From a virus: a DNA stretch of 47,402 nucleotides. The notes below the pieces were generated by a model. That model made no database searches. It was not told where the DNA came from and saw nothing but the letters and a program-made list of their open reading frames with translations. The DNA is taken from positions 1-47,402 of IMG/VR virus record IMGVR_UViG_3300010885_023842; one strand, written 5' to 3'. The position numbers and the translations under genes were made by a program. Of the stretch, positions 2,580 through 24,300 are shown piece after piece; the first letter of the stretch is position 1, and each line of letters starts with the position of its first letter.

Positions 2580-3746
2580 ATGCCAAGAATATCCTTATAC
2601 AAACCCGAAAGAGGGTCAGACTTTAAATTTATGGATCGCCAAGCTAGCGAAATGTTCCAGCTTGGTGGAACCGACATTTATTTGCACAAATATCTAGGAG
2701 CAAACACCAGCTCTGAAAATGCTACTGCCGCAGAACCGCATTATGCTACAGACAATGTTACTAATATACAAGATTTACTGTTATTAGAAAACCGTGATAG
2801 AAAATACGACCCGGAAATTTATCGATTACGTGGTTGGTACAATGTACAAAATATAGATTTTAATCTAAGCCAATTTGGTTTGTTTATTGACAACGATACA
2901 ATTTATATGACTGTACATATTAATGATTTTTTCAAATATATCGGTCGTAAACCTGTAAGCGGTGATGTGTTTGAACTGCCGCATTTACGTGATGATTTTG
3001 CATTAAATGATTTCGATGTAACAATGCCACGATATTATCAAATTACCGACGTGGGTCGTGCAAGCGAGGGATTTAGTCCCACATGGTATCCGCATCTATA
3101 TAGATTAAAATGTACAAAAATTACTGATAGTCAACAATTTGCCGCTATTCTTAGTCTACCTGCAAATGCAGATAACCCGGCTGGTCCGACTATACAAGAT
3201 ATTCTTAGTACTCGTGCTAAAGATTTAGCAATTAATCAGGCAGTTATTAATCAAGCAGAGTCCGATGCGGCACTGAGCGGCTACCAAACAAAACAATTTT
3301 ATACACTAGCAGTTGATCCTACTAACGGAAAACCTATTATTAAAACAGCCGACGATGCTGACCTTGATGCAAGTGGCATAGATATTACTGCGTCTGATGT
3401 AGATGGCGCACCAACACGTAGTGGATATACAGGTTACATGTTAGGCGACGGAGTTGCTCCTAATGGTATTCCTAATTTTGGTGCAGATATTCAATTTCCG
3501 TCTAGTGCAGAACAAAATGATTATTTTTTAAGAACTGATTTTATGCCAAACAGATTATTCCGCTTTGATGGAACACGCTGGGTTAAAGTTGAAGATAGTG
3601 TACGTATGACCATGACTAATACTGATACTCGTCAAACATTAAAAACCGGCTTTATTAACAATACAAATACAAATATTATCGGTGGTACAACTATTACCGA
3701 ACGTCAACCCCTATCTTCAGCACTTAAACCTAAGGCGGATCTATAA
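2580..3746 (+). CDS. Neck protein, gp14-like
   Basis: This protein is the partner of gp13 in the neck ring between head and tail. The 388-residue sequence opens with MPRISLYKPERGSDFKFMDR and holds NDFFKYIGRKPVSGDVFELP, which parallels the [20 protein letters not shown] strand pair of T4 gp14. It also has EGFSPTWYPHLYRLK, well known in aquatic T4-like gp14 proteins. It is longer than T4 gp14 (256 residues); the extra C-terminal part contains a DYFLRTDFMPNRLFRFDGTR segment of fibre-like character. No Shine-Dalgarno sequence precedes the ATG, and a GATAAATA element ends five bases upstream, suggesting leaderless or poorly led translation from that promoter. Its TAA overlaps the next ATG as TAATG. 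Confidence 0.75.
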   Translation: MPRISLYKPERGSDFKFMDRQASEMFQLGGTDIYLHKYLGANTSSENATAAEPHYATDNVTNIQDLLLLENRDRKYDPEIYRLRGWYNVQNIDFNLSQFGLFIDNDTIYMTVHINDFFKYIGRKPVSGDVFELPHLRDDFALNDFDVTMPRYYQITDVGRASEGFSPTWYPHLYRLKCTKITDSQQFAAILSLPANADNPAGPTIQDILSTRAKDLAINQAVINQAESDAALSGYQTKQFYTLAVDPTNGKPIIKTADDADLDASGIDITASDVDGAPTRSGYTGYMLGDGVAPNGIPNFGADIQFPSSAEQNDYFLRTDFMPNRLFRFDGTRWVKVEDSVRMTMTNTDTRQTLKTGFINNTNTNIIGGTTITERQPLSSALKPKADL

Positions 3747-5197
3747 TGCAGTATTTTTACGACGGTCAAATCCGCAGATATCTAGTACAGACTATTAGAT
3801 TGTTTAGTAATTTTACAGTCAAGTATGGTGACGGAACATTACATCAGATTCCAGTTAGTTACGGAGACCCAGATAGACAAGCGGCCGCTATTATTAGACA
3901 AAATAGTGAAAATGCTATACAAAGTGTACCACGTATAGCTGTGCATATTAAAGATTTACAATTAGACCGTACACGATTATCTGATGCAACCTATGTTGGA
4001 AAACTACATTTACGTGAACGAGACACATACACTGATCCAATAACTGGTCAGTTAACATATAGTGAAGGGCAAGGTAAAAACTATACTGTAGAAAGATTAA
4101 TGCCAACTCCATTTAAATTAACACTAAGTGTTGATATTTGGTCAAGCAGTACAGAACAAAAATTACAAATACTTGAACAAATCTTAGTATTGTTTAATCC
4201 TAGTTTAGAAATACAAACAACTGACAACTATATAGACTGGACTAGTTTAAGTGTACTAGATTTAACACAAGTATTATGGTCAAGCAGGCAAGTTCCAGTA
4301 GGTACAAATGACACAATTGACTTGGCTACATTAACTTTAGAAGCTCCGGTATGGATCAGTCCGCCTGCTAAGGTTAAAAATCTTGGAGTTATTGCCACGA
4401 TTATTACTAGTATCTATGGAGCCGTTGACAAAGATACGGTAAATCAGTATATCGAAGGACTTGGGGTTGATATAATGGGTAACGACGCCACTATGAGCGA
4501 CTTACTCAGTACCCAATATACTACTAATATTGGTAATTTTGGAGTATTACTATTAAACAGCACTGCGCAAATTATAAATCCAGGTAGTAATGTTAGTGCG
4601 CCAAATGATAGCTTAACTGTTCCGGTCAATTTAAGTGTTCCTATCAATTGGCAGGAATTTTTAGCAGGATGTAATGGTAGTTATCTAGCAGGTTCTAGTA
4701 AAATATATTTTAGACAAGCCACTGGATTTGAAGTAGGCGGAACATTTACAATAAATGCGCTTGATAATACAACAATTTCAATTGTATTAGACTCGTCTAC
4801 ATATCCAAGTAATAGTATGCTTGCGCCTGCTAGCGGTAACAATAGAGCAAACGGATTTAGTGCAGGCACGTTCGATGCCATTATAGATCCTATGACAGTA
4901 TATCCAAATAATGGAATGACAAATTTAACTGCTGGCGACAGATTTTTAATCATAGAAGATATCGGACATACCGGTAATACTACTCAAGCATGGGGCAGTT
5001 TTGTGGCTAAAGCCAATGACATCATAGAATGGAACGGAACTGCTTGGATTATTGTGTTCGATCATGGCCAAAATTCCAACACCTTACTCTATCAAACGAA
5101 TATATACAGTGGAGTCCAATACAAATGGAACGGCGTAAGCTGGGTTAAATCGTTTGAGGGCGAGTACGGAGCAGGTTTATGGAGAGTAGCACTCTAA
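3746..5197 (+). CDS. Tail terminator and sheath stabiliser, gp15-like
   Basis: In T4, gp15 forms a ring that caps the tail tube and sheath and binds the neck. The N-terminus YFYDGQIRRY, LFSNFTVKYG and IPVSYGD aligns with T4 gp15 YFYNSSFRRY, LFSNIQIKR and VPITYAS. Further on PTPFKLTLSVDIW and QILEQILVLFNPS match PSPIKMIYELSIF and QIVEQILPYFQPH. The protein has 483 residues against 272 in T4; the C-terminal 250 residues are an added low-complexity region ending in a WNGTAW and a YKWNGVSW motif, as in aquatic relatives. It follows gp14 through a one-base TAATG overlap, and its last 19 bases overlap the Nudix gene, so the accessory cluster is probably read from the same transcript. Confidence 0.8.
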   Translation: MQYFYDGQIRRYLVQTIRLFSNFTVKYGDGTLHQIPVSYGDPDRQAAAIIRQNSENAIQSVPRIAVHIKDLQLDRTRLSDATYVGKLHLRERDTYTDPITGQLTYSEGQGKNYTVERLMPTPFKLTLSVDIWSSSTEQKLQILEQILVLFNPSLEIQTTDNYIDWTSLSVLDLTQVLWSSRQVPVGTNDTIDLATLTLEAPVWISPPAKVKNLGVIATIITSIYGAVDKDTVNQYIEGLGVDIMGNDATMSDLLSTQYTTNIGNFGVLLLNSTAQIINPGSNVSAPNDSLTVPVNLSVPINWQEFLAGCNGSYLAGSSKIYFRQATGFEVGGTFTINALDNTTISIVLDSSTYPSNSMLAPASGNNRANGFSAGTFDAIIDPMTVYPNNGMTNLTAGDRFLIIEDIGHTGNTTQAWGSFVAKANDIIEWNGTAWIIVFDHGQNSNTLLYQTNIYSGVQYKWNGVSWVKSFEGEYGAGLWRVAL

Positions 5198-5628
5198 GAG
5201 ATAAAATTGTATGTAGCGGCGCATTAGTATACGCTAGAAATACTCATAGGTTTTTACTTTTACAGAAAGCTCGCGGTAAACATCAAGGTACTTGGGGACT
5301 GGTAGGCGGAACTACTATAGAGGGTGAAAACCCTTGGCAAGGTCTCCAGCGCGAAATAGTTGAAGAGATTGGATCTCTTCCTAACATAATCAAAACAATC
5401 CCACTTGAAACATTTGTCAGCAACGATGCTGTGTTCAATTTTCACACATACTTGTGTCTAGTCGATGACGAGTTCGTTCCTGTATTAAGTGACGAACATT
5501 GTGCATGGGCCTGGGCCATACTAGACCAATCTCCAAAACCTTTGCATCAAGGTTTAAAAAATAGCTTTTCAAACAAAGCTATGAGAACAAAATTACAAAC
5601 AATTTTTGATTTAGTGGGGTTAATATAA
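5179..5628 (+). CDS. Nudix hydrolase
   Basis: The 149-residue protein carries a near-perfect Nudix box from G44 to S66: G-x5-E50-x7-R58-E59-I-V-E62-E63-x-G65. The glutamates bind divalent metal, and the family splits nucleoside diphosphates linked to another group. The stretch GTWGLVGGTTIEGE is typical of MutT-like members. The substrate cannot be read from the sequence; oxidised dNTPs, NAD-type dinucleotides, ADP-ribose or mRNA caps are all possible. The start lies 19 bases inside the gp15 gene, and the stop shares a base with the next ATG (TAATG), so its translation is tightly coupled to both neighbours. T4 has an unrelated-position Nudix gene (nudE); this copy belongs to the accessory cluster. 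Confidence 0.85.
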   Translation: MESSTLRDKIVCSGALVYARNTHRFLLLQKARGKHQGTWGLVGGTTIEGENPWQGLQREIVEEIGSLPNIIKTIPLETFVSNDAVFNFHTYLCLVDDEFVPVLSDEHCAWAWAILDQSPKPLHQGLKNSFSNKAMRTKLQTIFDLVGLI

Positions 5629-6239
5629 TGAATTCTTACATAGACAACGTATATACTACACCTTTATATGTAGCCGGTATAACGGAAGAAGAAGGGTTTA
5701 GTACTATACAAGAAGAAGCCAGGCGAGCAATTGAAGCTTGTGAATTTTCAGCCAAAGCAGAATGGGGTGCTACACATTATCTTTCACATACTAGCTTTAT
5801 TGAAAATGTTATAGACGAACAAAAAATGAAAATATTTTCAATTATTTTGCACTCACATTTAGGCAAATATATGGACACTATTGGATTTAATATGAGACCG
5901 TATATGGTAACTAGTTGGTTTAGTTTATTTCAAAAAGGACAATACGGTCATTTACATAATCACGGTAATGCCGATGTAAGCGGATGCTATTACGTAGAAA
6001 CATCTGGCAACGATGGTGATTTTTATATAGAAGATCCGCGGCCAGCAAATGAAACCAGTTATGTATTTGCTAATCGATATTGTTCAGGAAGAAGATCATA
6101 TAAACCCGAAGTAGGCAAGCTGATGATGTTTCCTGGATATCTTTATCACGGAATAAAAACAAATAATACAGATACGGATCGCGTTAGTTTAAGTTTTAAT
6201 ATTAAATTTATCGATCCTAGATTATGTTTAAAACCATAA
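5628..6239 (+). CDS. 2OG-Fe(II) oxygenase-like protein, TIGR02466 type
   Basis: The 203-residue protein has the pattern of the TIGR02466 family of putative 2-oxoglutarate/Fe(II) oxygenases. It has H110-x-H112 followed by VSGCYYV, a DPR turn, GKLMMFPGYLYH with distal H174, and R185 before SLSFN, where the arginine would hold the 2OG carboxylate. The fold is a double-stranded beta-helix. The second proximal ligand is His where classical enzymes have Asp or Glu. The substrate is unknown. It is the first of four relatives in this cluster and is translationally coupled to the Nudix gene. Function as an active oxygenase is likely from the family but not proven. Confidence 0.7.
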   Translation: MNSYIDNVYTTPLYVAGITEEEGFSTIQEEARRAIEACEFSAKAEWGATHYLSHTSFIENVIDEQKMKIFSIILHSHLGKYMDTIGFNMRPYMVTSWFSLFQKGQYGHLHNHGNADVSGCYYVETSGNDGDFYIEDPRPANETSYVFANRYCSGRRSYKPEVGKLMMFPGYLYHGIKTNNTDTDRVSLSFNIKFIDPRLCLKP

Positions 6240-6255
6240 TAAGCAACACACATAT

Positions 6256-6987
6256 ATGGATATATTTTTTAAACGTAAAAAAATTATAGTAGACTGTTTT
6301 ACATATAGTACTACAGTTTATGATTATTTTCCTATAGTTCCCGCAACTAATCAGTTTCCTAATTGGTGGTCCGATTTAAAAAAATCTAACGATTTAATTC
6401 CTAATCTCAATTTAAAAACATGTCAAGGGTTAATAGGGCTATATCAAACAGCATTTACTATGCGTATGTGGTCCGATTTAGCCATAACAGTAGGGCCAAT
6501 TTCTGATCCTAAATTTAATTTAAGATTTGCAGACACAGAATCGTCGGCTCAACCTCACGGTGCAGACCAGTGGGGATCTTGGTTATCTGAAAAAGAATGG
6601 CAACATTTAAAAATTATATCGCCGTGGGTAATTAATAGTAAATCTGACACTAAATTTTTAATGACTGATCCAATGTGGGGTCGAAATAGTTTAAAAGATT
6701 ATACTGTTTTAAACGGTGTTCTTGATTTTAAATATCAAGTAACATCTAATATTAATTTAATGATGCCAAGACCTGAAGCGATGTATAAAGAATTTTTAAT
6801 CCCGGTAGGATCTCCTTTAGCGCAGTTAGTGCCGTTGACTGAAGATAAAATTGAATTTAAAAGCCATTTAATATCTAAAGAAGAGTTTATACAAAAAAAT
6901 ACACGAAATCTTTCGTTTATTAACAACTTTAAAAAAAATAAAAAGTTTACAAAAGAATCAAAATGTCCTGTTAAGAAATTTTTATAA
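6256..6987 (+). CDS. Protein of unknown function, paralogue of the protein at 9913-10641
   Basis: I do not recognise a known enzyme. The 243-residue protein has no clear signal peptide or membrane span. It is rich in Trp and Pro and has a VGSPLAQLVPL motif near residue 195 and a SKCPVKKFL C-terminus (235-243). The protein encoded at 9913 shows the same order of features: KCPAF against TCQGL, then a similar strand region, RGQPLMYIRF in place of GSPLAQLVPL, and KKCPFKKWF at the end. The pattern is reminiscent of the DUF6065 family, which I hold loosely. There is no evident ribosome site in the 16-base gap before the ATG. It sits among 2OG oxygenases, so a role with them is plausible but unproven. 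Confidence 0.6.
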   Translation: MDIFFKRKKIIVDCFTYSTTVYDYFPIVPATNQFPNWWSDLKKSNDLIPNLNLKTCQGLIGLYQTAFTMRMWSDLAITVGPISDPKFNLRFADTESSAQPHGADQWGSWLSEKEWQHLKIISPWVINSKSDTKFLMTDPMWGRNSLKDYTVLNGVLDFKYQVTSNINLMMPRPEAMYKEFLIPVGSPLAQLVPLTEDKIEFKSHLISKEEFIQKNTRNLSFINNFKKNKKFTKESKCPVKKFL

Positions 6988-6999
6988 CAAAGAGATAAA

Positions 7000-7602
7000 A
7001 TGACTGTTCAAATTATAGAAAATTTATTACCCGTGTGCTGGCAAAAAGGATTACAGCAAACAGTAAAAGATTTACAATGGGTACATCAAAAAGGTACATC
7101 GTATAAAGTTTCCAACGACTCGTTTATCCAGGGTATGGATATTTTTATAGACGACAATACCATCGACAGCCCACAATTTGTTTGTTATATAATAGATTCT
7201 AAACAAACTAGTCCTCTTTTTCCCTACATCAGACCTGTGTTATATATGTTAGAAAATGCGTTAGGGAAGAAAATTACACGCATTATTAGAATAAAAATTA
7301 ATCATCAATTACCAGTAGTAGGATTTAACAAAGATAATCACAATATTGCCCATGTAGATGAACCAGACGAGAATTTAATGTCTGCGGTATATTATATTAA
7401 CGATAGTGACGGCGATACTTTTTTATTTAATGAACATTATAGCCATAATAAAGATATTAAAGAACTAACAATAGCACACCGGGTCACTCCAAAAGCTGGA
7501 AAAATTGTTGTATTTCCTTCAACTCAGATGCATGCCAGTGCTAACCCTATTGATACTTCTTCTAGATATGTAATTAATTTTGTATTTGAGGTAGAAAAAT
7601 GA
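7000..7602 (+). CDS. 2OG-Fe(II) oxygenase with classical HxD motif
   Basis: The 200-residue protein has H118-V-D120 in NIAHVDEPDENL, then the strand SAVYYIND, a GDTFLF turn, VTPKAGKIVVFPS, distal H178 in MHASANPI, and R189 in SSRYVINF. This is a complete Fe(II) and 2OG binding set for the double-stranded beta-helix fold. Similar proteins are common in T4-like cyanophages without a defined substrate. It differs from the four HxH members in this cluster and has a classical HxD. Its end overlaps the following oxygenase gene by an ATGA, so the two are co-translated. Confidence 0.75.
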   Translation: MTVQIIENLLPVCWQKGLQQTVKDLQWVHQKGTSYKVSNDSFIQGMDIFIDDNTIDSPQFVCYIIDSKQTSPLFPYIRPVLYMLENALGKKITRIIRIKINHQLPVVGFNKDNHNIAHVDEPDENLMSAVYYINDSDGDTFLFNEHYSHNKDIKELTIAHRVTPKAGKIVVFPSTQMHASANPIDTSSRYVINFVFEVEK

Positions 7603-8201
7603 ATATTGATAGATGGTTTCCTACTATTGTCTGTTGCATAGACGATAACTTAGTAGATTTATTACCTAGTTACCAAAAATACTGCGAAGAAATTACTAAC
7701 GATATACCTGTTGGTAGACCGTTTACTGGGTCGCAATTAGTTAGTACATTTAACCAACAAATGCCCCAGTACGATCGTCCTGTAGAAAATGATATTAGAT
7801 TCAAAGAATTGTTTGATTTAATTTTAGAAAAAGGAAAAATGTTTTCAGAATTTTTAGGGTACAAATATAATTTAAAAATATCACATGCATGGATTAATAA
7901 AATACAAACCCACGATTATCACGAATTACATAATCATGCACTTGGTGGCGATGCATTAATTTCTGGGGTATTTTATGTGGCTGCGCCCGATTCTGCTGTT
8001 ATTAGATTTAAAGATTCTATAGATTCGTACTGTCCAGTTCCGCCTACAGCGCATACTCCGTATAATAATAAACACGCAAGGTATCCGTGTTTACCTGGAA
8101 GATTAATATTGTTTCGATCAGATGTATTACACGGGTACGATTCCCATAACTCTGAAAAAATTAAATATAGCATTGCTTTTGACCTGGCGGTACAACCATG
8201 A
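7599..8201 (+). CDS. 2OG-Fe(II) oxygenase-like protein, TIGR02466 type, Arg replaced by Lys
   Basis: The protein has 200 residues. H111-x-H113 is followed after nine residues by SGVFYV, which is a longer loop than in the relatives. GRLILFRSDVLHGY carries distal H178. The residue that aligns with the 2OG-binding arginine is K189 in KYSIAF. A Lys in this place is compatible with 2OG binding in some families, but could mean a changed co-substrate or reduced activity. It overlaps its neighbours on both sides by ATGA. It is about as similar to the members at 5628 and 13453 as can be judged by eye, so it is not a fresh duplicate. Confidence 0.65.
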   Translation: MNIDRWFPTIVCCIDDNLVDLLPSYQKYCEEITNDIPVGRPFTGSQLVSTFNQQMPQYDRPVENDIRFKELFDLILEKGKMFSEFLGYKYNLKISHAWINKIQTHDYHELHNHALGGDALISGVFYVAAPDSAVIRFKDSIDSYCPVPPTAHTPYNNKHARYPCLPGRLILFRSDVLHGYDSHNSEKIKYSIAFDLAVQP

Positions 8202-8830
8202 TGAATCCAATCTTTTATAGACCGTTCGGACCTTGCATTTATAGCAACATGATAAGTGCAGATATTTTAAATTTGTTAATTGATTGCAAGGAAAAATCTA
8301 AAATAACTAATGAGAATGTTGGACACTATCTAGCAGGAGCTTTAGAAAGTCAATTAAGATTAACTACTACTGCCGAAGAAGAATCTATATTATCAGACCA
8401 CATTTTTGACCATGTAGCTATGTATACTAGGCAACAGCCAGCAGATGTTAAGAACGCATTTAAAATTGGTAGAAAAAACATGTGGTTAAATATTCAAAAA
8501 CCTGGAGAATTTAATCCAACCCACCATCATTCAGGAGAAATATCAGGAGTAATTTATCTAGATATACCTAAAGATATTTCCGAAGAAAATAAAAAAGTAG
8601 CGGAACAGCCTAATCCTAAACAATTCAAAGGATATGGGGAAATTAGTTTTTATTACGGAGAAGATATTTCCGTCCCTACATACTTTCATCTAATGCCAAT
8701 AACTGGGCAAATTATATTATTTCCAGCTAAACTAAAACATAATGTTCACCCGTTTTACAGCAATGTTGAAAGAATATCTGTTGCTTTTAATGTTTATAAT
8801 ATCGATGATGCCAAAAGTGATATAGCCTAA
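8198..8830 (+). CDS. 2OG-Fe(II) oxygenase-like protein, TIGR02466 type
   Basis: The 210-residue product has H109-H-H111 in NPTHHHSGEISG followed by VIYLDIP, a 30-residue charged insertion, YFHLMPITGQIILFPA, distal H181 in LKHNVHPF and R192 in ERISVAFN. These are the expected Fe and 2OG ligands in family order. The N-terminus YRPFGPCIYSN resembles the strand that starts TIGR02466 proteins. Two ATG codons are close together at 8198 and 8201; the first overlaps the preceding stop as ATGATG, and either could be used. The gene ends the first half of the cluster; a late promoter follows in the next gap. Confidence 0.7.
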   Translation: MMNPIFYRPFGPCIYSNMISADILNLLIDCKEKSKITNENVGHYLAGALESQLRLTTTAEEESILSDHIFDHVAMYTRQQPADVKNAFKIGRKNMWLNIQKPGEFNPTHHHSGEISGVIYLDIPKDISEENKKVAEQPNPKQFKGYGEISFYYGEDISVPTYFHLMPITGQIILFPAKLKHNVHPFYSNVERISVAFNVYNIDDAKSDIA

Positions 8831-8841
8831 CTATACGCTGT

Positions 8842-8849
8842 TATAAATA
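8842..8849 (+). promoter_or_regulatory. T4-type late promoter (TATAAATA) inside the accessory cluster
   Basis: A perfect TATAAATA stands in the 41-base gap between two oxygenase genes, 22 bases before the next ATG. An AGGAG ribosome site lies at 8862-8866, five bases from that ATG. Both suit late expression of 8872-14025, whereas genes before it are probably read through from gp14-gp15. Confidence 0.85.
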
Positions 8850-8871
8850 TTCAACCACACTAGGAGTAGCC

Positions 8872-9696
8872 ATGGAAACGTCATTATCCACAGAAAATAC
8901 CCAGCAAAATGAGATTGCTGTAAAAAGTAAAAAGCCATTAGAAATATTTTATCTAGAAAATGTTGCAAGATCCGATACATTTGCTAATGTAGTAGGCGAT
9001 GTAAATAAACCCGGTTGGGAATTTGGACGGATGACTGACGAAACAGAAGATAAAAATACAGCTATCATGTTCTGGACCCAAAGTATGCAACGCAGTCACT
9101 GGTGTACTGAAGTATTGTGGTATGAAATTTTAGCAAAATTAGAAGAAGTAGCTCCAAAAACTACAAATTATCAATTTAAAGTTAAATCTGTTGTATGTGG
9201 CGGTAAGACTTTTGGCCAAGACGGTGGAATCCATACTGATACCGATTTCCAGTTTAATGAAGAAGGCGACGGTTGGATGACTGTTTGTTTCTTTCCTAAT
9301 GAAGAATGGAATGCTGAGTGGGGTGGCGAATTTCAATTTTTTAGTGATGAGGGAGAAGTTATAGCAACTTATTACCCTAAACCTAATACATGTTTAGTAT
9401 TTGATTCTAATATCCCTCACAGAGGGTTGGCTCCTATTAGGACTTGCAACAGATTAAGAAAATGTTTAACTTATAAAACATTTGTACACAAGCAATGGTT
9501 TCTAGAAAAGAATCCAGATGTGAAAATGATAGACGGAAGTGTTGTTCCTGGTTTGGTAGGAACTCCTACAAGAACCAACTTAGATAAAATAACTGATAAC
9601 AATACAAACGAAACGTTTAAAGATGTGGAAATACCATTGACTATTTCACAGGATATGGGAACTCCAACTCCGTCTAAGAAAAATATAAAAAAATAA
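8872..9696 (+). CDS. Prolyl-4-hydroxylase-like 2OG-Fe(II) oxygenase
   Basis: The 274-residue enzyme carries H121-T-D123 in GGIHTDTD, a GGEFQFF strand, PKPNTCLVFDSNIPHRGLAP with distal H183, and R194 and R196 in CNRLRKCLTYKT. These fit the prolyl-hydroxylase/SM-20 type of 2OG-Fe(II) oxygenases, which hydroxylate proteins or small molecules. Residues 1-22 and about 210-274 lie outside the core; the tail is Thr, Asn and Lys rich and probably disordered. It has the strongest translation signals of the cluster: a perfect late promoter, AGGAG and a five-base spacer, so it may be the most expressed. A protein substrate such as a virion fibre is an attractive but unproven idea. Confidence 0.8.
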   Translation: METSLSTENTQQNEIAVKSKKPLEIFYLENVARSDTFANVVGDVNKPGWEFGRMTDETEDKNTAIMFWTQSMQRSHWCTEVLWYEILAKLEEVAPKTTNYQFKVKSVVCGGKTFGQDGGIHTDTDFQFNEEGDGWMTVCFFPNEEWNAEWGGEFQFFSDEGEVIATYYPKPNTCLVFDSNIPHRGLAPIRTCNRLRKCLTYKTFVHKQWFLEKNPDVKMIDGSVVPGLVGTPTRTNLDKITDNNTNETFKDVEIPLTISQDMGTPTPSKKNIKK

Positions 9697-9698
9697 TC

Positions 9699-9923
9699 AT
9701 GGATAATACTAAGAAAACTGCTATAAGACGGCCTCACTTTCCAGATAGACTAGTATTAGTGCCAATTCATATTCGAGACGAACGTCTTTCAATATGTAGT
9801 ACTTGTCCGGATGCTACTTCTGATCAAATATGCAGGGTAAATGATAAACCGATACATGCTTTAGCTATCAAAAGAAATTATCAATGCCCACACGGGTTTT
9901 GGTCGCTATACTATGGCAGTTAA
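9699..9923 (+). CDS. Small four-cysteine protein, likely zinc-binding
   Basis: The 74-residue product has C33-x2-C36-P, C45 and C63-P in that order, followed by W68. The spacing C-x2-C-x8-C-x17-C resembles short phage proteins that end in a CP..W motif and are thought to bind zinc. No enzyme activity is suggested. It starts two bases after the stop of the oxygenase gene and overlaps the next gene by 11 bases, so it is part of the same operon. Its job may be as an adaptor or a regulator; nothing in the sequence decides this. Confidence 0.6.
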   Translation: MDNTKKTAIRRPHFPDRLVLVPIHIRDERLSICSTCPDATSDQICRVNDKPIHALAIKRNYQCPHGFWSLYYGS

Positions 9924-10641
9924 AGTTGGTTGGTGCCCGTGGGGAGAAAGAGGCCCGCATACTAATGAATCATCTGCGGTGTACTGGGGACAGGCTGAAA
10001 TACTGACTATAGCTCCTACAAAATTAGACACATGGGAAAACAGCCATAGTGGATTTACTAAATGTCCAGCTTTTAGTACGTATGTGGCAAACACATACAT
10101 GATGTGTGCTAACATAGATCTTGAATTAACATGGAATAAAGAAACCAAACGATTATCAAGCAACTTGTTGCCGATGGCCCATGATACCCATATACACTTA
10201 CATGCATATGATTTTGCTCCTGATGTTGATCCTCCTATTGTTTCCATGTTATCCAGCATGTTATTTGTGGCCGATGAACCAGTAATTATAGAAATGACAC
10301 CGCCGTATAACCATATCGATCCAGCATGGAGAAGTATGCCCGGCTCATTCAATATCTACAATTGGTTTAGGCCTGTTATACCGGCTATTGAAATGTTACA
10401 TAGCACAGTATCAATAAAGCGTGGGCAACCTTTGATGTATATCAGATTTAAAACTGAAAATTTTAAAGATAACGTGGTGCTAGAACGCATTGAACGGACT
10501 GATAAACTTGAGCACTTAGTTAATTCTTGCTTGTCAGTTAAAAATTATCAACCTTCACTTAGTTGGAAGATAGCTAATTCGTTAAATCCTATTAGACCCA
10601 AGAATCTTTTAAAAAAATGTCCGTTTAAAAAATGGTTTTAA
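9913..10641 (+). CDS. Protein of unknown function, paralogue of the protein at 6256-6987
   Basis: The 242-residue protein starts MAVKVGWCPWGERG and contains SMPGSFNIYNWFRPVIPA and RGQPLMYIRF in its middle and end thirds, with a KKCPFKKWF C-terminus (234-242). It shares this order of features with the protein encoded at 6256, so the two are divergent relatives. It is Trp- and Pro-rich and probably all-beta. DUF6065 came to mind, without a firm match. It overlaps the four-cysteine gene by 11 bases and is followed by the halogenase-like gene after a single base, so it is embedded in the halogenase operon. The long antisense frame over its first half is a shadow. Confidence 0.65.
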   Translation: MAVKVGWCPWGERGPHTNESSAVYWGQAEILTIAPTKLDTWENSHSGFTKCPAFSTYVANTYMMCANIDLELTWNKETKRLSSNLLPMAHDTHIHLHAYDFAPDVDPPIVSMLSSMLFVADEPVIIEMTPPYNHIDPAWRSMPGSFNIYNWFRPVIPAIEMLHSTVSIKRGQPLMYIRFKTENFKDNVVLERIERTDKLEHLVNSCLSVKNYQPSLSWKIANSLNPIRPKNLLKKCPFKKWF

Positions 10642-10642
10642 C

Positions 10643-11851
10643 ATGGCAAGATCACTAGTTGTTATTGGCGCAGGTACATCGGGTATTCAAAGTGTATGCC
10701 ATTATCTAGCATTTCTTGCAAGCCACGGCTGGACTATTACACTTATACATTCCCCTAAAATTAATACTCTTGGTATTGGAGAAAGTACTAATCCGCCATT
10801 TGTAGAAGCACTTGAAGATGCGGCTAATTTTAATATAATCGACGATTTACCTGAATTAGATGCCACATTAAAATTTGGAACATATTATGTAAACTGGAGA
10901 AATAATCCATTTACTATTCCAGTACTTACCGGCCATGCGGCTGTTCACATTAACACATTTAAACTGCAAAATTTTGCGCTGCCTCGTCTTAAATCAATAT
11001 GGGGCGATAAATTTCAAATAATCGAAGGCAAAGTTTCTAGTGTAACAAATACTGAAAATGCAGTACAGGTTGTAGTTGATGATAAAAAATTATACTTTGA
11101 TTTTGCAGTTGACAATAGAGGATTTCCCGAGTCGTATGATGACTATCACGTTATTGAAGACAATCCAGTTAATCATGCACTAGTACATAACATGCCAAAA
11201 ACAGCCGCATGGAACGCAACCTTACATCAAGCTACTCCGGATGGATGGATGTTTGGAGTGCCGTTAACCTCGCGAACCAGTTATGGATACTTGTTTAATC
11301 GTAACATTACACCGGTTGAACAAGCCAAAATTAATTTTAGTAAAGAAATAAATGTTCCAGTAGATCAATTAGATAATATAGAATATAAATTTAAATCTTA
11401 TTATATTAAAAAAGTGCTGGATAAACGTATACTTAAAAACGGTAATAGGGCAGTATTCTTTGAACCCATGTTTGCCAATAGTTTGTGGTTGTACAAACAC
11501 ACTGACAAGTTGTTTATTAGCTATATTAAACAAGGTATTCCTGAAGATCATATTAATAACGTGTTTAATGACATGGCTAAAGACGTAGAAGAATTAATTT
11601 GTTATTTTTATCATGGCGGTAGTCAGCACGATACAGAATTTTGGAATAAAGTAAAACCATATGCTAGTAAAAAACTAGAGGCCAGCAAATCTTTCCATAC
11701 TATGAAAACAGTTGCACGACGACAATATAAAAATAAACAATTTGATCCTGAAGTAAATGACTATAGCTGGGTATTCGCTGAAAAACACATGATGTATATC
11801 GACGAAAAATTAGAATATAATTATTTCAGCCGGCAAGACGACGATAATTAA
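10643..11851 (+). CDS. Flavin-dependent halogenase-like protein lacking the catalytic Glu
   Basis: The 402-residue protein belongs to the tryptophan-halogenase (PrnA-like) superfamily. It has the FAD dinucleotide motif G9-x-G11-x2-G14, the GIGEST motif at 44-49 and LKFGTYYVNW with K77, aligning with the catalytic Lys of PrnA (Lys79). The WxWxIP signature is altered to W202-M-F-G-V-P207. The EPLES-type motif that carries the catalytic Glu is EPMFANSL at 274-281, so the Glu is replaced by Phe. It is about 125 residues shorter than its neighbour. It may keep FAD and Lys but not act as a normal halogenase; a role as partner or regulator of the neighbour, or another flavin reaction, is possible. 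It starts one base after the preceding stop. Confidence 0.75.
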   Translation: MARSLVVIGAGTSGIQSVCHYLAFLASHGWTITLIHSPKINTLGIGESTNPPFVEALEDAANFNIIDDLPELDATLKFGTYYVNWRNNPFTIPVLTGHAAVHINTFKLQNFALPRLKSIWGDKFQIIEGKVSSVTNTENAVQVVVDDKKLYFDFAVDNRGFPESYDDYHVIEDNPVNHALVHNMPKTAAWNATLHQATPDGWMFGVPLTSRTSYGYLFNRNITPVEQAKINFSKEINVPVDQLDNIEYKFKSYYIKKVLDKRILKNGNRAVFFEPMFANSLWLYKHTDKLFISYIKQGIPEDHINNVFNDMAKDVEELICYFYHGGSQHDTEFWNKVKPYASKKLEASKSFHTMKTVARRQYKNKQFDPEVNDYSWVFAEKHMMYIDEKLEYNYFSRQDDDN

Positions 11852-11873
11852 ATATATAAAAGTAAAGGACAGT

Positions 11874-13460
11874 ATGCCAAGCATAAACAAAATTGTAATT
11901 GTAGGCGGAGGATCCGCAGGATGGATGACTGCGGCCACATTAAAACATCATCTTCCTGATAGAGAAGTATACGTTATTGAAAGTCCTAACATAGCTACTG
12001 TGGGTGTGGGCGAAAGCACTATTGGACAAATTAACACTTGGCTCCACGATTTAGATATCAAAGACGAAGATTGGATGCCGCATTGTGATGCTAGTTATAA
12101 ACTAAGCATTAAATTTACTGATTTTGCCAAAGAAAATTCGGGCGGATTCCATTATCCGTTTGGGTTGCCGTGTCTTGATGGCACCGTATTTGGCATCAAC
12201 GATTGGTATTTTAAAAAAATGAAATTTCCAGATACTCCAAACAGTGATTATGCTTATACTTACTATCCAGCAACCATGTTGTCTGAAGCAAATAAAATTA
12301 CTACAAACGAAAATAATGAAATTCCAGTATGGCGGTTTGATAATGATACTGCTTATCATTTTGATGCGGCAAAATTTGGTGCTTGGTTAAGAGATATCTA
12401 TTGCAAACCAAGGGGAGTAGTACATATTCCAAGTGAAGTAGTAAGCGTAGAAACAGGCGATGCCGGAATAGAAACACTAACCCTTACTGATGGTACTACA
12501 ATAACTGCTGACTTGTTTGTGGACTGCACTGGATTCAAAGCTATGTTAATAGATAAAGCGTTGCAAGTGCCATTTATTTCATATGATCATATGTTGCCTA
12601 ACAACAGTGCGTGGGCTACCCGGGTACCTTATCAAAATAAGCCTTTAGAATTAGAACCTTATACTAATTGTACAGCCATCGACAACGGATGGGTGTGGAA
12701 TATTCCTTTATGGAGTAGAATAGGGACTGGGTATGTATACAGTGACAAGTTTATTAGCGATGCAGATGCTTTAGAAGAATTTAAAGAGTATCTACGCCAA
12801 AGAAAACCAGTTGCTGTACCAGAAGAAATTATTGATACCTTAGAATTTAGAAATATTAAAATGAGAATTGGTATTCATAAAGAAATCTATGTAAAAAATG
12901 TGTGTGCAATTGGTCTTGCGGCAGGCTTTATCGAGCCTTTAGAAAGTAACGGGTTATATACAGTGCATGAATTTGTTACTAAACTAGCAAAAACTTTACG
13001 TAGAGACAGTATTAATCAATGGGACAAAGATTGTCTTAATACTGTATGCCGTAGAGATTTTAAAATATTTGCGCAGTTTGTGTCATTACATTATGCGTTG
13101 AGTCAAAGAGATAAGTCGGCTTATTGGAAAGCTATCAGCAACAAGCAATTTAATCTTGACATGATCAATGACAATATTACACGATCAGGATATGAAGATT
13201 TAATGTATGGTCGTATGAATTCAAACAACTATAGTCAGGATTTAGGAGGAATTCCTCCAATTGCTACAGGTATGGGATTTTTTCCGCTAGATGAAAGCAG
13301 TGTAAAACGCAGTATGTTTACTAATAATCACACCATGTTGCACGATGTTGTTTCTAATACATTTGAAAAATGGGAACAACAACAAATAAGATGGAAAAAG
13401 ATAGTTGATCAAGCCCCTACGCTATTTGATTTCTTACGAAAAAACTATTATAATGATTAA
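11874..13460 (+). CDS. Flavin-dependent (tryptophan-type) halogenase
   Basis: The 528-residue enzyme has all main landmarks of flavin-dependent halogenases: G11-x-G13-x2-G16, GVGEST (44-49), the catalytic lysine region YKLSIKF with K76, DLFVDCTGF (214-221), the signature W273-V-W275-N-I277-P278, and FIEPLESNGL with E357 as the catalytic glutamate. These enzymes use FADH2 and O2 to make HOCl or HOBr, or iodine species, that are passed to Lys and then to an aromatic substrate. PrnA has Thr where this protein has N359, next to the halide site, which may change halide choice. A related cyanophage enzyme, VirX1 from phage Syn10, is reported to iodinate. Reduced flavin must come from a host reductase, as none is seen here. 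An AAAGGA site precedes the ATG. Confidence 0.88.
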   Translation: MPSINKIVIVGGGSAGWMTAATLKHHLPDREVYVIESPNIATVGVGESTIGQINTWLHDLDIKDEDWMPHCDASYKLSIKFTDFAKENSGGFHYPFGLPCLDGTVFGINDWYFKKMKFPDTPNSDYAYTYYPATMLSEANKITTNENNEIPVWRFDNDTAYHFDAAKFGAWLRDIYCKPRGVVHIPSEVVSVETGDAGIETLTLTDGTTITADLFVDCTGFKAMLIDKALQVPFISYDHMLPNNSAWATRVPYQNKPLELEPYTNCTAIDNGWVWNIPLWSRIGTGYVYSDKFISDADALEEFKEYLRQRKPVAVPEEIIDTLEFRNIKMRIGIHKEIYVKNVCAIGLAAGFIEPLESNGLYTVHEFVTKLAKTLRRDSINQWDKDCLNTVCRRDFKIFAQFVSLHYALSQRDKSAYWKAISNKQFNLDMINDNITRSGYEDLMYGRMNSNNYSQDLGGIPPIATGMGFFPLDESSVKRSMFTNNHTMLHDVVSNTFEKWEQQQIRWKKIVDQAPTLFDFLRKNYYND

Positions 13461-14025
13461 TTATTATTTGCACAAACTACAATGGACTGATTTTGACAAA
13501 TATAAAGATGGTATTATACAGTATTGTTTAGATAACGAAAAGCCAAATACTGTTGAAGAAAATATTACCAGTACTATAAAACACGGAATGTGGGAAAGTA
13601 AGTTTAATTTTTTAGAATCATCTGACAATGATGCCATTACTCAATTAAAACTTTGGATTCTTACAACTTGCGAATCGTATATAGCACAGCTAAACGAAGA
13701 ATATCACAGATTAGTTATTACAGAATCATGGGCCCATGTTACTAGAACCGGCGGATACCATCTTCCACACGATCATTGCGGATGTACATGGTCAGGAATA
13801 ATGTATATTACAGAAGGTGATTTAGATTCGGGCGGTAAAACTAGCTGGATTCCGCCGTTGCATATTGAAAGAAAAACAGGATTAGAATTTTTAAGAGATA
13901 GTTTCTTTTTTAAACCTGAAGCAGGTTCTATGATGATATTTCCTAGTGCATTAATACACTATGTAGAACCGTATCGGGGAACTAGCCCCCGAATAACAAT
14001 CGCTTTTAATGCTATCTGTATCTAA
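13453..14025 (+). CDS. 2OG-Fe(II) oxygenase-like protein, TIGR02466 type
   Basis: With the ATG at 13453 the product has 190 residues. H106-D-H108 in LPHDHCGCTWSGIMYI, a GGKTSW turn, AGSMMIFPSALIH with distal H169 and R180 in SPRITIAFN form the family ligand set. The ATG lies in an 8-base overlap with the halogenase stop (ATGATTAA), so the two are translationally coupled and probably made in similar amounts. The frame also opens at an upstream TTG (13405), which is inside the halogenase and lacks support. It is the last gene of the cluster and ends two bases from the stop of a minus-strand fibre gene. Confidence 0.72.
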   Translation: MINYYLHKLQWTDFDKYKDGIIQYCLDNEKPNTVEENITSTIKHGMWESKFNFLESSDNDAITQLKLWILTTCESYIAQLNEEYHRLVITESWAHVTRTGGYHLPHDHCGCTWSGIMYITEGDLDSGGKTSWIPPLHIERKTGLEFLRDSFFFKPEAGSMMIFPSALIHYVEPYRGTSPRITIAFNAICI

Positions 14026-18331: not shown

Positions 18332-21300
18332 TTATTTTTGGCTAAAGAAAGCTAGTGCTACTGGAGCACCATCTATTCCACCGATAAATGTCATCTTACT
18401 TGTGACATAAATCTGATTACCTGTTGTATTACTTATCGTATTATTGGCAATGTAGATCTGTCCTGAAGTTAATGTATTTACGTTCAAACTACTTGATCCG
18501 CCACCAATTTGGGCTGTAATATAGCTCTTAATAGCCTTTTGTGTGGGTACAATGCTGTCACTGTTGGCTGTAAAGTACGGATCTGTACTAAAACTTGTAA
18601 TAGTTGCTGATCCTGTACCAACTGCTAAGGTACCCAATGTCAAACTTTGTAATCCGCTTAGAGCAAACGCACTAGCATTTAATGTAGCAGTACCAGTTGA
18701 CTGTTGAACTCCGAACAAATTACCCACGTTAAAGTTACCGTCTTGGTCAGTTGATGTAAAGAACACTCGTCCGCCGCCAGTTGGGTAAGTTTGGTTTGCC
18801 GCGATGGCATTTCCAGGAATCACATTTGGATAGTTTGTCTGTGTTTGGTTACCAGTACCGATATACAAGAAGTCATGTCCAGTTAAACGAACCTGGCTGT
18901 ATTTCAAACGAGTGGTAATTAACACGTTGTGCGCCGGTGCAAGAAGTGTACTTAATGCAGGGTTAATCTGGAATGTAGCTGTATAGTTGCCTGGAGTACC
19001 TAACACGTTTGACACTAACACCAGTTTATACCACTGACTTGTACCAGTAATACTTGAAAACTGTACGTTTGCGCCTGCTGTTGGTAAAGCAAATACGTTG
19101 CTTACGTTTACATAAGCTGAATTTTGATAAATGTCGCCGTATCCATCACCTAATGTGTTTGCAGTAGCAGTTGCGTTATTCAAACCACGATTAGTAAAAC
19201 TTGGATTGCCTAATACTCCGTCACTAGTACGTACACGAATTGGTGCTGTGTTAACCTTGTTAGGATCAAATTGTGTTGCAACCGGACCTGCTGTATAAAT
19301 CATATTTTGCGGAACTGTAGTTGTCAATGTCACCGCAGTTGTGCTACCTGCTGTAGCAGTTACACTAAACTGTGTGCTTGTTACACTTGAACCAATTACA
19401 TAATATGTTGTGTTAGTAGTTAAGCCAGCAATACTTACTGTAAATTCAATAGGTTGATTGTTAGCTAGACTGGTTGATAAGTTAGTAGTATCGTCCGCAG
19501 TAATTAAATTAGTACTTGTTGTGGTAGCAGTAACGTTACCTTTAGCGTAACCAGAACCTGGTTCAATTACGCGAATTTCTGTCACTACGTTGGCCGCTAC
19601 TTTCATACGTCCAAGCGGTGTTGCACCAGTTCGTATACTTGCGGCCGCTGTGCCAGATGTTGAACTGACAGCCGCCCATACTGGCTGTGCTCCAATAACT
19701 GTGCTAGACAAGTTACTTGGATTACCAAATGCTATGGCACTCCAGTTGCTACTGCTTGGCATTGCACGTATAGTCCAAACTAAACCGTCTGGGCTTGTGG
19801 CCGCCACTGTACCTTGCGATATAGCAAAGAATAAACCTTGTGCGTAAACAACTTTTGTCCAAGTATATGCAGAACTTAGCGTACTAGTGATAGTTCCAGT
19901 ACAAGTTGGATTTGCGATCCAACTTGTTCCATAGTTGTATGTGTATGCTACTGCACCAGTTGTTGCTAATGCAACAAATCTGTTATTACCGTATGCAATA
20001 CTTGTCCAAGTTGTTGAGCTTGGTAGTACTCCACCAGTAGTCCAAGTTTGGCCGTTATTCGAAATGCTAGTTACGTTACCGCCATTATTAATAGCAATGA
20101 ATGTTCCTGAAGCACTTCCGCCTGCACCATAAGCAACAGCTGAATAGTAACCAGCACTTAAACTGGTTAATGTTCTTGCGATCCAGTTAGCAGAAGCAAT
20201 TGGATTTGTGCTTGATACCGCTACGGCTGTACCGCTTGCGCCACCTACTGCTACATAGCTACCATTACCATAAGCTAAACCATATAAGTTTAACTGGCTA
20301 ATGTAAGCATTACCGACACCATTGTTAAGCACAGTCCATGCTGATGATAGCGCACTTGCTGTGTTGTAGGCAAAGTATGTACCGGTAGATGCGGTTGTAC
20401 TCATTGCTAAGAATACAGCACTGGTATCTAATATAGTAACAGATGGTACACTAGTATATCCGTAACCTGCAATAAGTGTAGTAAGGGCTGTTACTGCGCC
20501 GTTGCTAATAGTAGGGCTTGCACTTGCTTGTGTAGCAACGTAGGTAAGTGTTGCTGTACCGTTAGTTATGTTGGTATATCCACTAGAAGTTGTGTAATCA
20601 AAAGCTGGTGTAGTACTACTTGTTGTACCACTTGCTGTACATTGATAAATTCTTCCGCTAGCTAATACTTGATAATAAGTTCCGTTAGTAACTGCGCCGC
20701 TTACTGGGTAAGTGGTTGGAGTTAGTCCTTGCGGCTGGCTGATAGTCACTGTTGGAGCACTGAAATAATTCTTACCCCATGTATTCATAGCTATGCCAGT
20801 CATCACACCAGTTACTACTGTAGTAGTTGGAGGGGTTACATATCCAGAACCATTAATAGTCATAGTTACTGCTTGAATAACACCGTTTAGTACTGTACAA
20901 GTTGCGGCTGCACCACTACCTGTTCCACTTACAAACACAATAGTTGGAGGAGTTGAATAGTTATAACCGCCGTTAGTAACAATTACACTTACAACTTGAC
21001 TTGCTGAAGTTCCTGTACCAAGTACTGCTGTCAATACTGCGCTAGCTCCGCCAAATCCGCCTAATGTTACTGTAGCTGTAGCGCCTGAGCCACCACCAAA
21101 AATAACGTTGTTCCATACTTGACTACTTGGCAGTGCGCCACCTGCCGACCACGTTGTACCATTTGTTGAATACTGTGTTGTTGTTCCGTTATTATTGGTA
21201 GCAACAAAACGTCCAGCGCCGTAAGTAACTGCACCATACGCGGCACTGGTAACTGATCTTGCAGTACCAACATAACCCGGCGAACTATAACCAATACGTG

Positions 21301-24300
21301 GTTCAATAATATAACCGGTTGTCAAATCCAATTGCGATACAATAGCTGTTCCAGGTATTACATGATCCCAGCCTGCGGCATATACCGCTGTGCCAATAGT
21401 GCCAGTTGAACTTGTTGAACCAGTCGCTGTAATTGTAACAGTAGTTCCAGCAAATGGACTTGTGCTTACGGCAAATACACTAGTAGTTAAGTTTGTTGCA
21501 TTGACAAAATATGTAGTTGCTGTATCGATACCATTAAATGCAGTACCAAAAGATAACGTCTGTCCTGCTGTTAGTGTATTTGTTGCAGTAATCAAATTGT
21601 TAACTATATTTGTTGCGGTTACTGTTAGAGTTGACGATGCAACAGTTGTAACAGCCACAATATTAGCATTGCTAGCAGTAATTGTTGCACCTGATGCCAC
21701 ACTGAACGCTCCAGCAGTAACGCCTTGCACATAGTAAGGACTCAATGCTGTTAATCCACCAATTGATGTACCAAAGAATATTGGCATACCATTGTACATG
21801 TTTGCAGTACTTGATACAGTCAATGTATTTTGTGTGCCGGTAATAGTTGTACTTGATTGTGCAACAGTTGTGTTTGTGTTCCATGTAGAGCCAGCGCCAG
21901 TACCGCTAATATTAGAAGTAATGTATGTGCCTGCGGCAATTGATCCGCCTGTCAAGAACATGCCAACTGCAATCGTTCCGCTTACAGTACCCACTGTTAA
22001 AATACCAGTAGTTACAGCAATGCTCGATGCTGATAATGTAGCAGTTGCAGTTGTCGACGCTGTAACGGCATATGGTGCAATACTATCTCTAATTACTTGT
22101 GCAACTTTGGTTGGGTTGGAATATGAAATAATATTTGCATACTGTCCAACGCCAGTACCAGCAATAACTTGTATACGATCACCGTTGTAGGCATTATTCA
22201 ATGCTGTGTCAGTAGCCGCAATGGTAATAGAATACACGTTAGCAGTTATCTGACCAACGTTACTAGCAGTGATATAGTTAGTACCGCCAGCGCCGTTACC
22301 ATCATTTTTATCAATTAATCGTGTTTCAAACAATGCCGCATCACGGAATTCATCTTGGAATGCCGCCGCATTATATCCGCTACCACTAATGCTTGGTACT
22401 GTACTTGTATAGTTTGTTCCAGCATTTGCATATTCAAGTCGTAAAACTTGAGTTGTAGCATCTGTTACCACGTTTGTAATATATGCTTGGTTAGCGCGAT
22501 TATTTAAATTTGCATATAGCGGAACTTCAGTTGTATCAACACCTTCAGCAACAACTCCATACACACCGTATGAACTGTTACCATTAGTAGCACGAATACG
22601 ACCGCCCAAATCTGCCATATATCCTGCATAACTATAATAGTTAAACACTGATACTAGTTCCGATAATGCGCCAGCGCCAGTTGTTTGCCAGCCAATACCG
22701 TCGCCAATAATACATGTATAGTCGTTAGCCACCATTGAATGGTATCCACCGCTATGCAATGCTCCGTCAACTTTAGCACCGTATGCCGCGTAACCAAACA
22801 TTGTACAGTTTTGTACATAGCAACTACGTGAATAAATCCATGCGTTACTGTCGTTTGGACCAAAACCTGGATCTAAACTTGTATATGCTCCGCCTGTTGG
22901 ACGCTTAGTTCCAAACGCCACGCTGGCTGTTCCTAAGTAACCTGTTAATCCGTTCATAGTCATATTACGGATGCCAGAAGCATTACGTACTAACCACATG
23001 TTAGAGCCTGCCGATCCATTGATTGAATTTAACAATACTTGCGCATAACGTAAACTTCTATAGTTGCCAGTATATTGTAAATCGTAAACAATAGCATTTA
23101 AATAGTAACCGATATCAGTTTGTGTAAGTGCAGTTGGCGCATAGTATGACACTGTCATGGCAGGTGCTGACACAGCTGACAAGATGACTGTTGCACCAAC
23201 TGTGCCAGTATTAATATTGGTAAAACCTTCGATAGTTGTTAGTGTAAATGTTGTAGTACTAGGAACACTTGCAACATAGTAAATTGTACCAGCAGTTACA
23301 CCGCCTGATACGAATCCTGTATATGTTACAGTACTAGACATACTGCCGCTTGCACCAACCGACAGCGCGGCACCTCCTGCGCTAATCGCAGAAATTGTTA
23401 TTGCGCCTGCACTTGCTGTCAGTACCCAGTAACTTGTGCCGGCAGTTACAGCTCCAAAACTAGTACCAAATACAACAGTACCGTTTGGAACTAAACCTGT
23501 AATAGATCCAACTGTAATGCTAGTAGTTGTATAAGCAGTTGCAGTTGTTGAAGCAGTAGTACTGGTAAATTGTACAGGATCGTTAACTACTAATGCATGT
23601 GCCGCACTGGTGGTAAACGTATTTGTTGGATTAGCTGCCAATGCTGTTAAACTATATGTATAAGTTGAGGCAAAGTATGCTGTAACTTCGTTTTGTAAGA
23701 ATGGAATATTAGCACGTAAAATTTCAGCGCCTTCAATAATACCTAAATTATTATTATAACTAATTGTACCATTCATTTGTGGCTGAACATACTGTGTTGA
23801 TGTCAAATAACTAATAATTGTATTAATATTAGACGTAGCAACTGTTAGTTGTGTAGTATATGATGAAGATGATAATGTTGTTGCTACAAGAGTCTGTAAG
23901 TAATTTAAAGATGCAGTAGTTACAGTTAATTCATAACCTTGTACTTTATAATCTTGGCTTCTGTTATAAGCACGACCAGCTTGAACCGTAGCAAAGTTAC
24001 TACCTAATAATAAATCTAAGAACATTGCCAAAGTAACGTTAAACACGTCGCGTTGTACGTATGTTGACAAGTATGTAAATGCTGTATAATTAGTGTTAAT
24101 ATACCCTGGAACACTAGATTGGCTAATACCTGCAACGCTTACACCGGTTACTGGTACTGCTACAGTACCGCTTGTTGCGGCAACACTCATAGTATATGTA
24201 CCTGTGTTTCCAGTACCAGTACCTAATGCTGTAATAACTGCGCCACCGCCTAATCCAGTTCCAGTAACACTCATGCCTAATGCAATAGTACCAGCTGAAA

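Follow-up and report, generated by a model that had tools for sequence, protein, structure and literature searches.

A broad phage lineage of halogenase-fold proteins that lack the catalytic glutamate and retain the catalytic lysine

The window analysed here, a virus record with a full length of 47.4 kb that also encodes a T4-type tail-sheath stabiliser (PF16724) and a glycine-rich protein, contains two adjoining halogenase-like genes (Table 1). The product of the second gene, P2, has the catalytic glutamate of tryptophan halogenases and that of the first, P1, does not, which raises the question of whether P1 is a dead enzyme, a helper of its neighbour or an enzyme in its own right. An earlier note on this DNA had listed K77, EPMFANS (residues 274-280) and WMFGVP for P1, and K76, E357 within EPLESNG, and WVWNIP for P2, and these residues are found as given. 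Both reading frames are intact and lie on the same strand, 22 bases apart. In a joint alignment, P1 F277 shares a column with P2 E357, and P1 K77 with P2 K76. A phmmer alignment of PrnA with P1 likewise places F277 at Glu346 and K77 at Lys79; the PrnA-type catalytic Glu is thus absent from P1 and present in P2. The loss of the Trp-halogenase Glu proposed in the note is borne out, as the alignment places no substitute Glu in the active site of P1, E274 being the Glu of the EP motif common to both proteins. Nor does the alignment reveal a compensating acidic residue near the active site that is specific to the Glu-less clade, with the sole exception of D387, near the C-terminus.

Table 1. Positions of the genes and catalytic codons in the window, and of the fused relatives on other contigs.
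Feature	Position	Strand	Description
Upstream cluster	5628..8830	+	2OG oxygenases 5628-6239, 7000-7602, 7599-8201 and 8198-8830; further ORF 6256-6987
2OG-Fe(II) oxygenase	8872..9696	+	PF13640; two genes upstream of P1
242-aa protein, function not assigned	9913..10641	+	phrog_17480; ends 1 base before P1
P1	10643..11851	+	short Glu-less flavin-dependent-halogenase-like protein, 402 aa; GxGxxG G9/G11/G14, K77, WMFGVP, FFEPMFANS
P1 K77 codon	10871..10873	+	counterpart of PrnA Lys79; invariant in 101/101 short-clade proteins
P1 F277 codon	11471..11473	+	at the PrnA Glu346 position
P2	11874..13460	+	canonical VirX1-like flavin-dependent halogenase, 528 aa; K76, WVWNIP, FIEPLESNG
P2 E357 codon	12942..12944	+	catalytic Glu, retained
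2OG-Fe(II) oxygenase	13405..14025	+	PF13759; ATG start probably 13447, overlapping the P2 end
Two giant ORFs	18332-30718; 30765-39641		4128 aa and 2958 aa; beside glycine-rich genes
Glu-less FDH-2OG fusions	L111:6001-7923; L113:5980-7953; L144:6001-7968; L157:6001-7959		four metagenome samples

The F277 residue is not a product of chance or sequencing error, since a 74%-identical relative of P1 (L004) has the same residues and the same gene order, and since Phe occupies this site in 19 distinct relatives. A pseudogene or frameshift was likewise rejected on the basis of the open frames, the conserved relative and purifying selection: comparison of P1 with the 74%-identical protein by NG86 gave a dN of 0.18 and a dS of about 1.9 (saturated), hence a dN/dS of about 0.1, in line with the neighbouring genes. 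Together with the fixation of the Glu-less form in one clade (see below), this supports the earlier proposal that Glu-less P1 has a selected role. The 242-aa protein encoded immediately upstream is 85% conserved in L004, above P1 itself.

The genes from 2580 to 14025 all lie on one strand; among them are P1, P2, a NUDIX gene and the six 2OG-Fe(II) oxygenase-like genes of Table 1. Several of the 2OG genes also match phrog_274, whose name 'DNA endonuclease V' is apparently a mislabel.

P2 is an ordinary, VirX1-like halogenase that keeps every halogenase motif. Its best solved-structure match, over the full length, is VirX1 (E 5e-111), the viral variant-A flavin-dependent halogenase (FDH) of cyanophage Syn10 (PDB 6QGM), with which it shares the Lys, WVWNIP and EPLES. 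Over 99% of its length P2 shares 39% identity with the Syn10 protein, and it shares 49% with a protein of cyanophage Sf-CH11. Two adjoining halogenase-family genes also occur in Syn10 and P-RSM6, so an adjacent pair as such is already known.

P1 passes PF04820 (106.8 bits, as compared with 347.5 bits for P2, at a gathering cut-off of 21), as do 43 of 43 relatives tested. An AF2 model of P1 alone, built from 43 sequences, has a pLDDT of 93.7 and a pTM of 0.91, and its top 50 matches in the PDB are all halogenases (PyrH: E 2e-28, TM 0.80/0.66). P1 is therefore predicted to have the FDH fold and, as the note had held, to be a halogenase-family flavoprotein as opposed to a member of an unrelated family. 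The family profile matched Trp halogenases far above the CndH-/CmlS-type (phenol, alkyl) FDHs. P1 has the GxGxxG motif (G9, G11 and G14 are invariant across the aligned relatives), the Lys79 equivalent, the EP motif and the fold in common with PrnA, RebH and PyrH, but lacks the equivalents of Glu346 and Ser347, has WxF for WxW, and has shortened substrate-binding elements. In the alignment P1 has no counterpart of P2 residues 99-157 or of most of the P2 C-terminal region, and by this measure its substrate side is much reduced. VirX1 is of the same superfamily and fold, is also phage-encoded and has the conserved Lys; its match to P1 is nevertheless weak (E 2e-5), with P1 lacking the Glu, carrying WxF, being about 130 residues shorter and falling in a separate clade.

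A single-sequence scan of viral contigs with P1 yielded only 1 relative, in contrast to the hundreds obtained by profile scanning; the alignment-based scan gave 558 relatives, the best 80 of which were kept. In a quick-search tree built from 139 proteins with the trait column left out, and midpoint-rooted for display only, a short clade, mostly of 360-420 aa, stands apart from a long clade with an SH-aLRT of 100. P1 as a recent duplicate of P2 was rejected, the two being 21% identical and in separate clades. The short clade is represented by 101 distinct proteins from two scans, each contributing its best 80 matches, so that the proportions given here are not unbiased frequencies. All 101 have the catalytic Lys, and all 101, the Glu-bearing ones included, have WxF instead of WxW; this universality indicates that the WMF motif of P1 is not a second loss tied to the missing Glu. 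Within the same set of best matches, the Glu position is occupied by E in 44, S in 33, F in 19, Q in 2, and Y, A and T in 1 each. The Glu-less proteins form a single clade (SH-aLRT 99) nested among the Glu-bearing short proteins, which is most simply explained by one loss of the Glu, the site having varied since. As to whether the Glu-to-Phe change is fixed, a question posed by the earlier note, the Glu-less state is fixed in one clade but the residue itself varies. Of all the lysines, K77 alone is invariant across 48 Glu-less proteins with a median pairwise identity of 42%. P1 is thus no quirk of one gene pair but a member of a broad phage lineage of halogenase-fold enzymes that have kept the Lys without the Glu.

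No characterised member of the short viral clade was found among the matches. The clade does include the annotated 'tryptophan halogenases' of the T4-like cyanophages S-SSM5, S-MS29, S-SSM7 and S-ShM2 (phrog_2928), which share WxF and the Lys with P1 and are 29-36% identical to it over the alignment, but keep the Glu (EPIEAFS, EPMEATS) or have Gln (EPIQATS). Relatives 37-41% identical also occur on contigs filed under Myxococcaceae, Polyangiaceae, Vampirovibrio and other MAGs (L165-L171), possibly misbinned phage contigs; in contigs filed under bacterial genomes the Glu site is Val or Ile (EPLVANS, EPLIANS). The long clade also replaces the Glu, as six of its phage halogenases (L033, L061, L074, L075, L011 and L083) have Gln or Asn at this position (EPLQATS, EPLQSTG, EPLNSTG, EPLNSSG). 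In one further long phage halogenase (L055:2579-4255) EPLEASG is kept and the residue that aligns to the catalytic Lys is Asn (NAVYNASIQ); by its sequence this protein is a better candidate than P1 for a dead halogenase.

An FDH without the Glu is not for that reason inactive, as phenol halogenases naturally lack it (PMC8407142). In PrnA, K79A abolishes activity, while E346Q slows the enzyme about 100-fold (PMC5727139). The published FDH motif FX[DE]PX[EFL] allows Phe at the place of the Glu (PMC8407142), and P1 fits this motif with FFEPMF (F272-F277), unlike its Ser-bearing relatives. The phenol-type enzymes RadH/Rdc2 and CHEESY1 all share with P1 the absence of the Trp-halogenase Glu. In CHEESY1, which has been shown to be active, Phe310 lies two residues past the motif Pro (PMC12645471), matching F277 of P1, two residues after P275; RadH needs K74, D325 and F328 (PMC10377541). 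P1 differs from phenol-type FDHs in that its profile lies nearer the Trp halogenases, and it lacks the Ser and Gly of the Fx.Px.SxG motif. As both profile and fold place P1 with the Trp halogenases, the loss of Glu in its lineage was probably independent of that in phenol halogenases. Taken together, the invariance of K77, the natural absence of the Glu in phenol halogenases with a motif that P1 fits, and purifying selection suggest that P1 is probably not a dead enzyme.

Other features speak against ordinary halogenase chemistry. The Fx.Px.SxG motif is said to be present in all active FDHs (PMC8407142), and P1 (FFEPMFANS) has A278 for the Ser and S280 for the Gly. The second Trp of WxWxIP is Phe in P1 (WMFGVP); as some other FDHs have variants of this motif or lack it (PMC8407142), it does not strictly define them. 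The reduced substrate side also counts on this side.

A number of Glu-less proteins point to possible working partners. Four of them, from four metagenome samples, carry a further domain of about 200 aa at the C-terminus (Table 1). These are close relatives in the tree, and may therefore stem from one fusion event. The PDB matches of an AF2 model of the fused domain (pLDDT 71) are 2OG-Fe(II) dioxygenases, prolyl-4-hydroxylases among them (4j25, E 3e-10), with 557 PDB chains found at E <= 0.001. The PHROGs label 'ferrochelatase' (phrog_2954, phrog_3531) for this domain was rejected, being contradicted by the fold search. Profile comparison of the fused domain with the 2OG proteins of the window and relatives gave no match, the second alignment being poor. 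Genes that encode the prolyl-4-hydroxylase-like domain on its own also lie close to other short FDHs, of the Glu-less as well as the Glu-bearing kind (L098, L120, L153 and L249 are examples). The window itself is without this 2OG subtype, its six 2OG genes around P1 being of other kinds. The number of 2OG genes per locus is similar in the two kinds of short-FDH locus, at 2.3 for Glu-less and 2.4 for Glu-bearing proteins. Fusion and gene neighbourhood together support a functional coupling of Glu-less FDHs to 2OG dioxygenases.

Our preferred reading, which we hold with roughly even confidence on the strength of sequence, model and analogy, is that P1 would be a catalytically active, Glu-independent FDH that acts on an electron-rich aromatic substrate together with 2OG dioxygenases. 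A host reductase would supply reduced FAD, which would bind the GxGxxG fold of P1 and give the C4a-hydroperoxide. Attack of halide on the C4a-hydroperoxide would yield HOX, which would reach the invariant K77, and K77 would hold and activate it toward the substrate. An electron-rich substrate would need no carboxylate base, leaving the Glu position free to drift to Ser or Phe (cf. phenol halogenases). The substrate would probably be bulky or polymeric, and would also be worked on by the 2OG-Fe(II) dioxygenases encoded beside or fused to the halogenase-like protein. We infer each of these elements, namely catalysis, the halogenation outcome, the substrate type and the joint action with dioxygenases.

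The main rival to a halogenase that relies on Lys only, serious even if rather unlikely in our estimate, is a flavin monooxygenase, such as a QhpG-like peptidyl-Trp/Tyr hydroxylase, in which the flavin would have become open to the substrate once the Glu and the second Trp of WxWxIP were lost. The neofunctionalised flavoprotein that the note had offered as one possibility may be of this type. WxWxIP has been proposed to block monooxygenation (PMC8407142), and the change from WxW to WxF is clade-wide; the prolyl-4-hydroxylase-like fusion also suggests a hydroxylation type of tailoring. QhpG has a halogenase-like fold (PMC7876137), as P1 is predicted to have, and the protein-Trp hydroxylase QhpG is the only NCBIfam match of P1 (E 7e-6). 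At 25.2 bits this match is weak, far from the equivalog cut-off of 240, and it is non-decisive because the halogenase P2 scores higher on QhpG (46.5 bits). By fold, QhpG is closest to CmlS (PMC7876137), whereas the predicted fold of P1 is closest to Trp halogenases, which both profile and fold searches return. The invariance of K77 also argues against pure oxygenation, which would not need the Lys. In a different proposal, P1 would be active as a FAD-dependent oxidase or generator of HOX, releasing for instance hypohalite or H2O2, and would have no defined organic substrate; this would fit a reduced substrate-binding part next to conserved FAD and Lys sites. We consider it the least probable of the readings, as both the fixed substrate-side differences of the Glu-less clade (N50, P51, F53 and Y214) and the dioxygenase fusion argue for a specific substrate.

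The earlier note had also suggested that P1 might be a pseudo-enzyme partner of the 528-aa protein or a flavin carrier; on such a reading P1 would bind and assist P2 as a heterodimer subunit, flavin carrier or regulator. The adjacency of the two genes on the same strand, in both the window and L004, is in keeping with this, as are the 7 of 39 Glu-less loci that lie next to a long FDH, including other arrangements (such as L083 and the L100/L103/L112/L116 group). However, P1 and P2 fall in separate clades, and of the 39 Glu-less loci for which enough sequence is available, 24 lack a long FDH at any distance up to 6 kb. Virus records of 331, 223, 165 and 102 kb, of uncertain completeness, contain no PF04820 match besides the Glu-less protein. 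Compared with Glu-bearing short proteins, Glu-less ones do not lie significantly more often next to a long FDH (7/39 versus 1/14 loci, p = 0.67) or within 6 kb of one (p = 0.35), the numbers being small and related loci not independent. The catalytic Lys, FAD motif and EP are invariant, and the loss or drift of the essential Lys expected of a pseudo-enzyme is not seen in the 48 Glu-less proteins. The suggestion of a pseudo-enzyme partner is thus not upheld and appears improbable, and an obligate P1-P2 heterodimer is unlikely; it is possible that P1 and P2 act in a joint pathway in this phage.

Returning to the reading of P1 as a Glu-independent halogenase, a protein substrate is chemically plausible, as RebH is able to brominate peptides (PMC13184988). 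The products of the two giant ORFs of the window are possible substrates of the tailoring enzymes. We suggest, very tentatively and with some doubt, that Glu-less short FDHs and prolyl-4-hydroxylase-like 2OG dioxygenases could form a phage two-enzyme tailoring machine, sometimes on one polypeptide, that would halogenate or hydroxylate aromatic residues and hydroxylate others on a phage structural or host protein. We know of no phage with a protein modification of this kind.

Phage halogenases are common, though we found no paper that states a substrate for one during infection. In the natural fusions with a prolyl-4-hydroxylase-like domain there is a concrete hint at working partners, which makes the question of the substrate directly testable. 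The Glu-less lineage may supply compact enzymes for electron-rich substrates. As a large natural lineage in which the Glu has given way to Ser, Phe and other residues while the Lys has stayed constant, it offers a ready test of the role of the Glu in FDHs.
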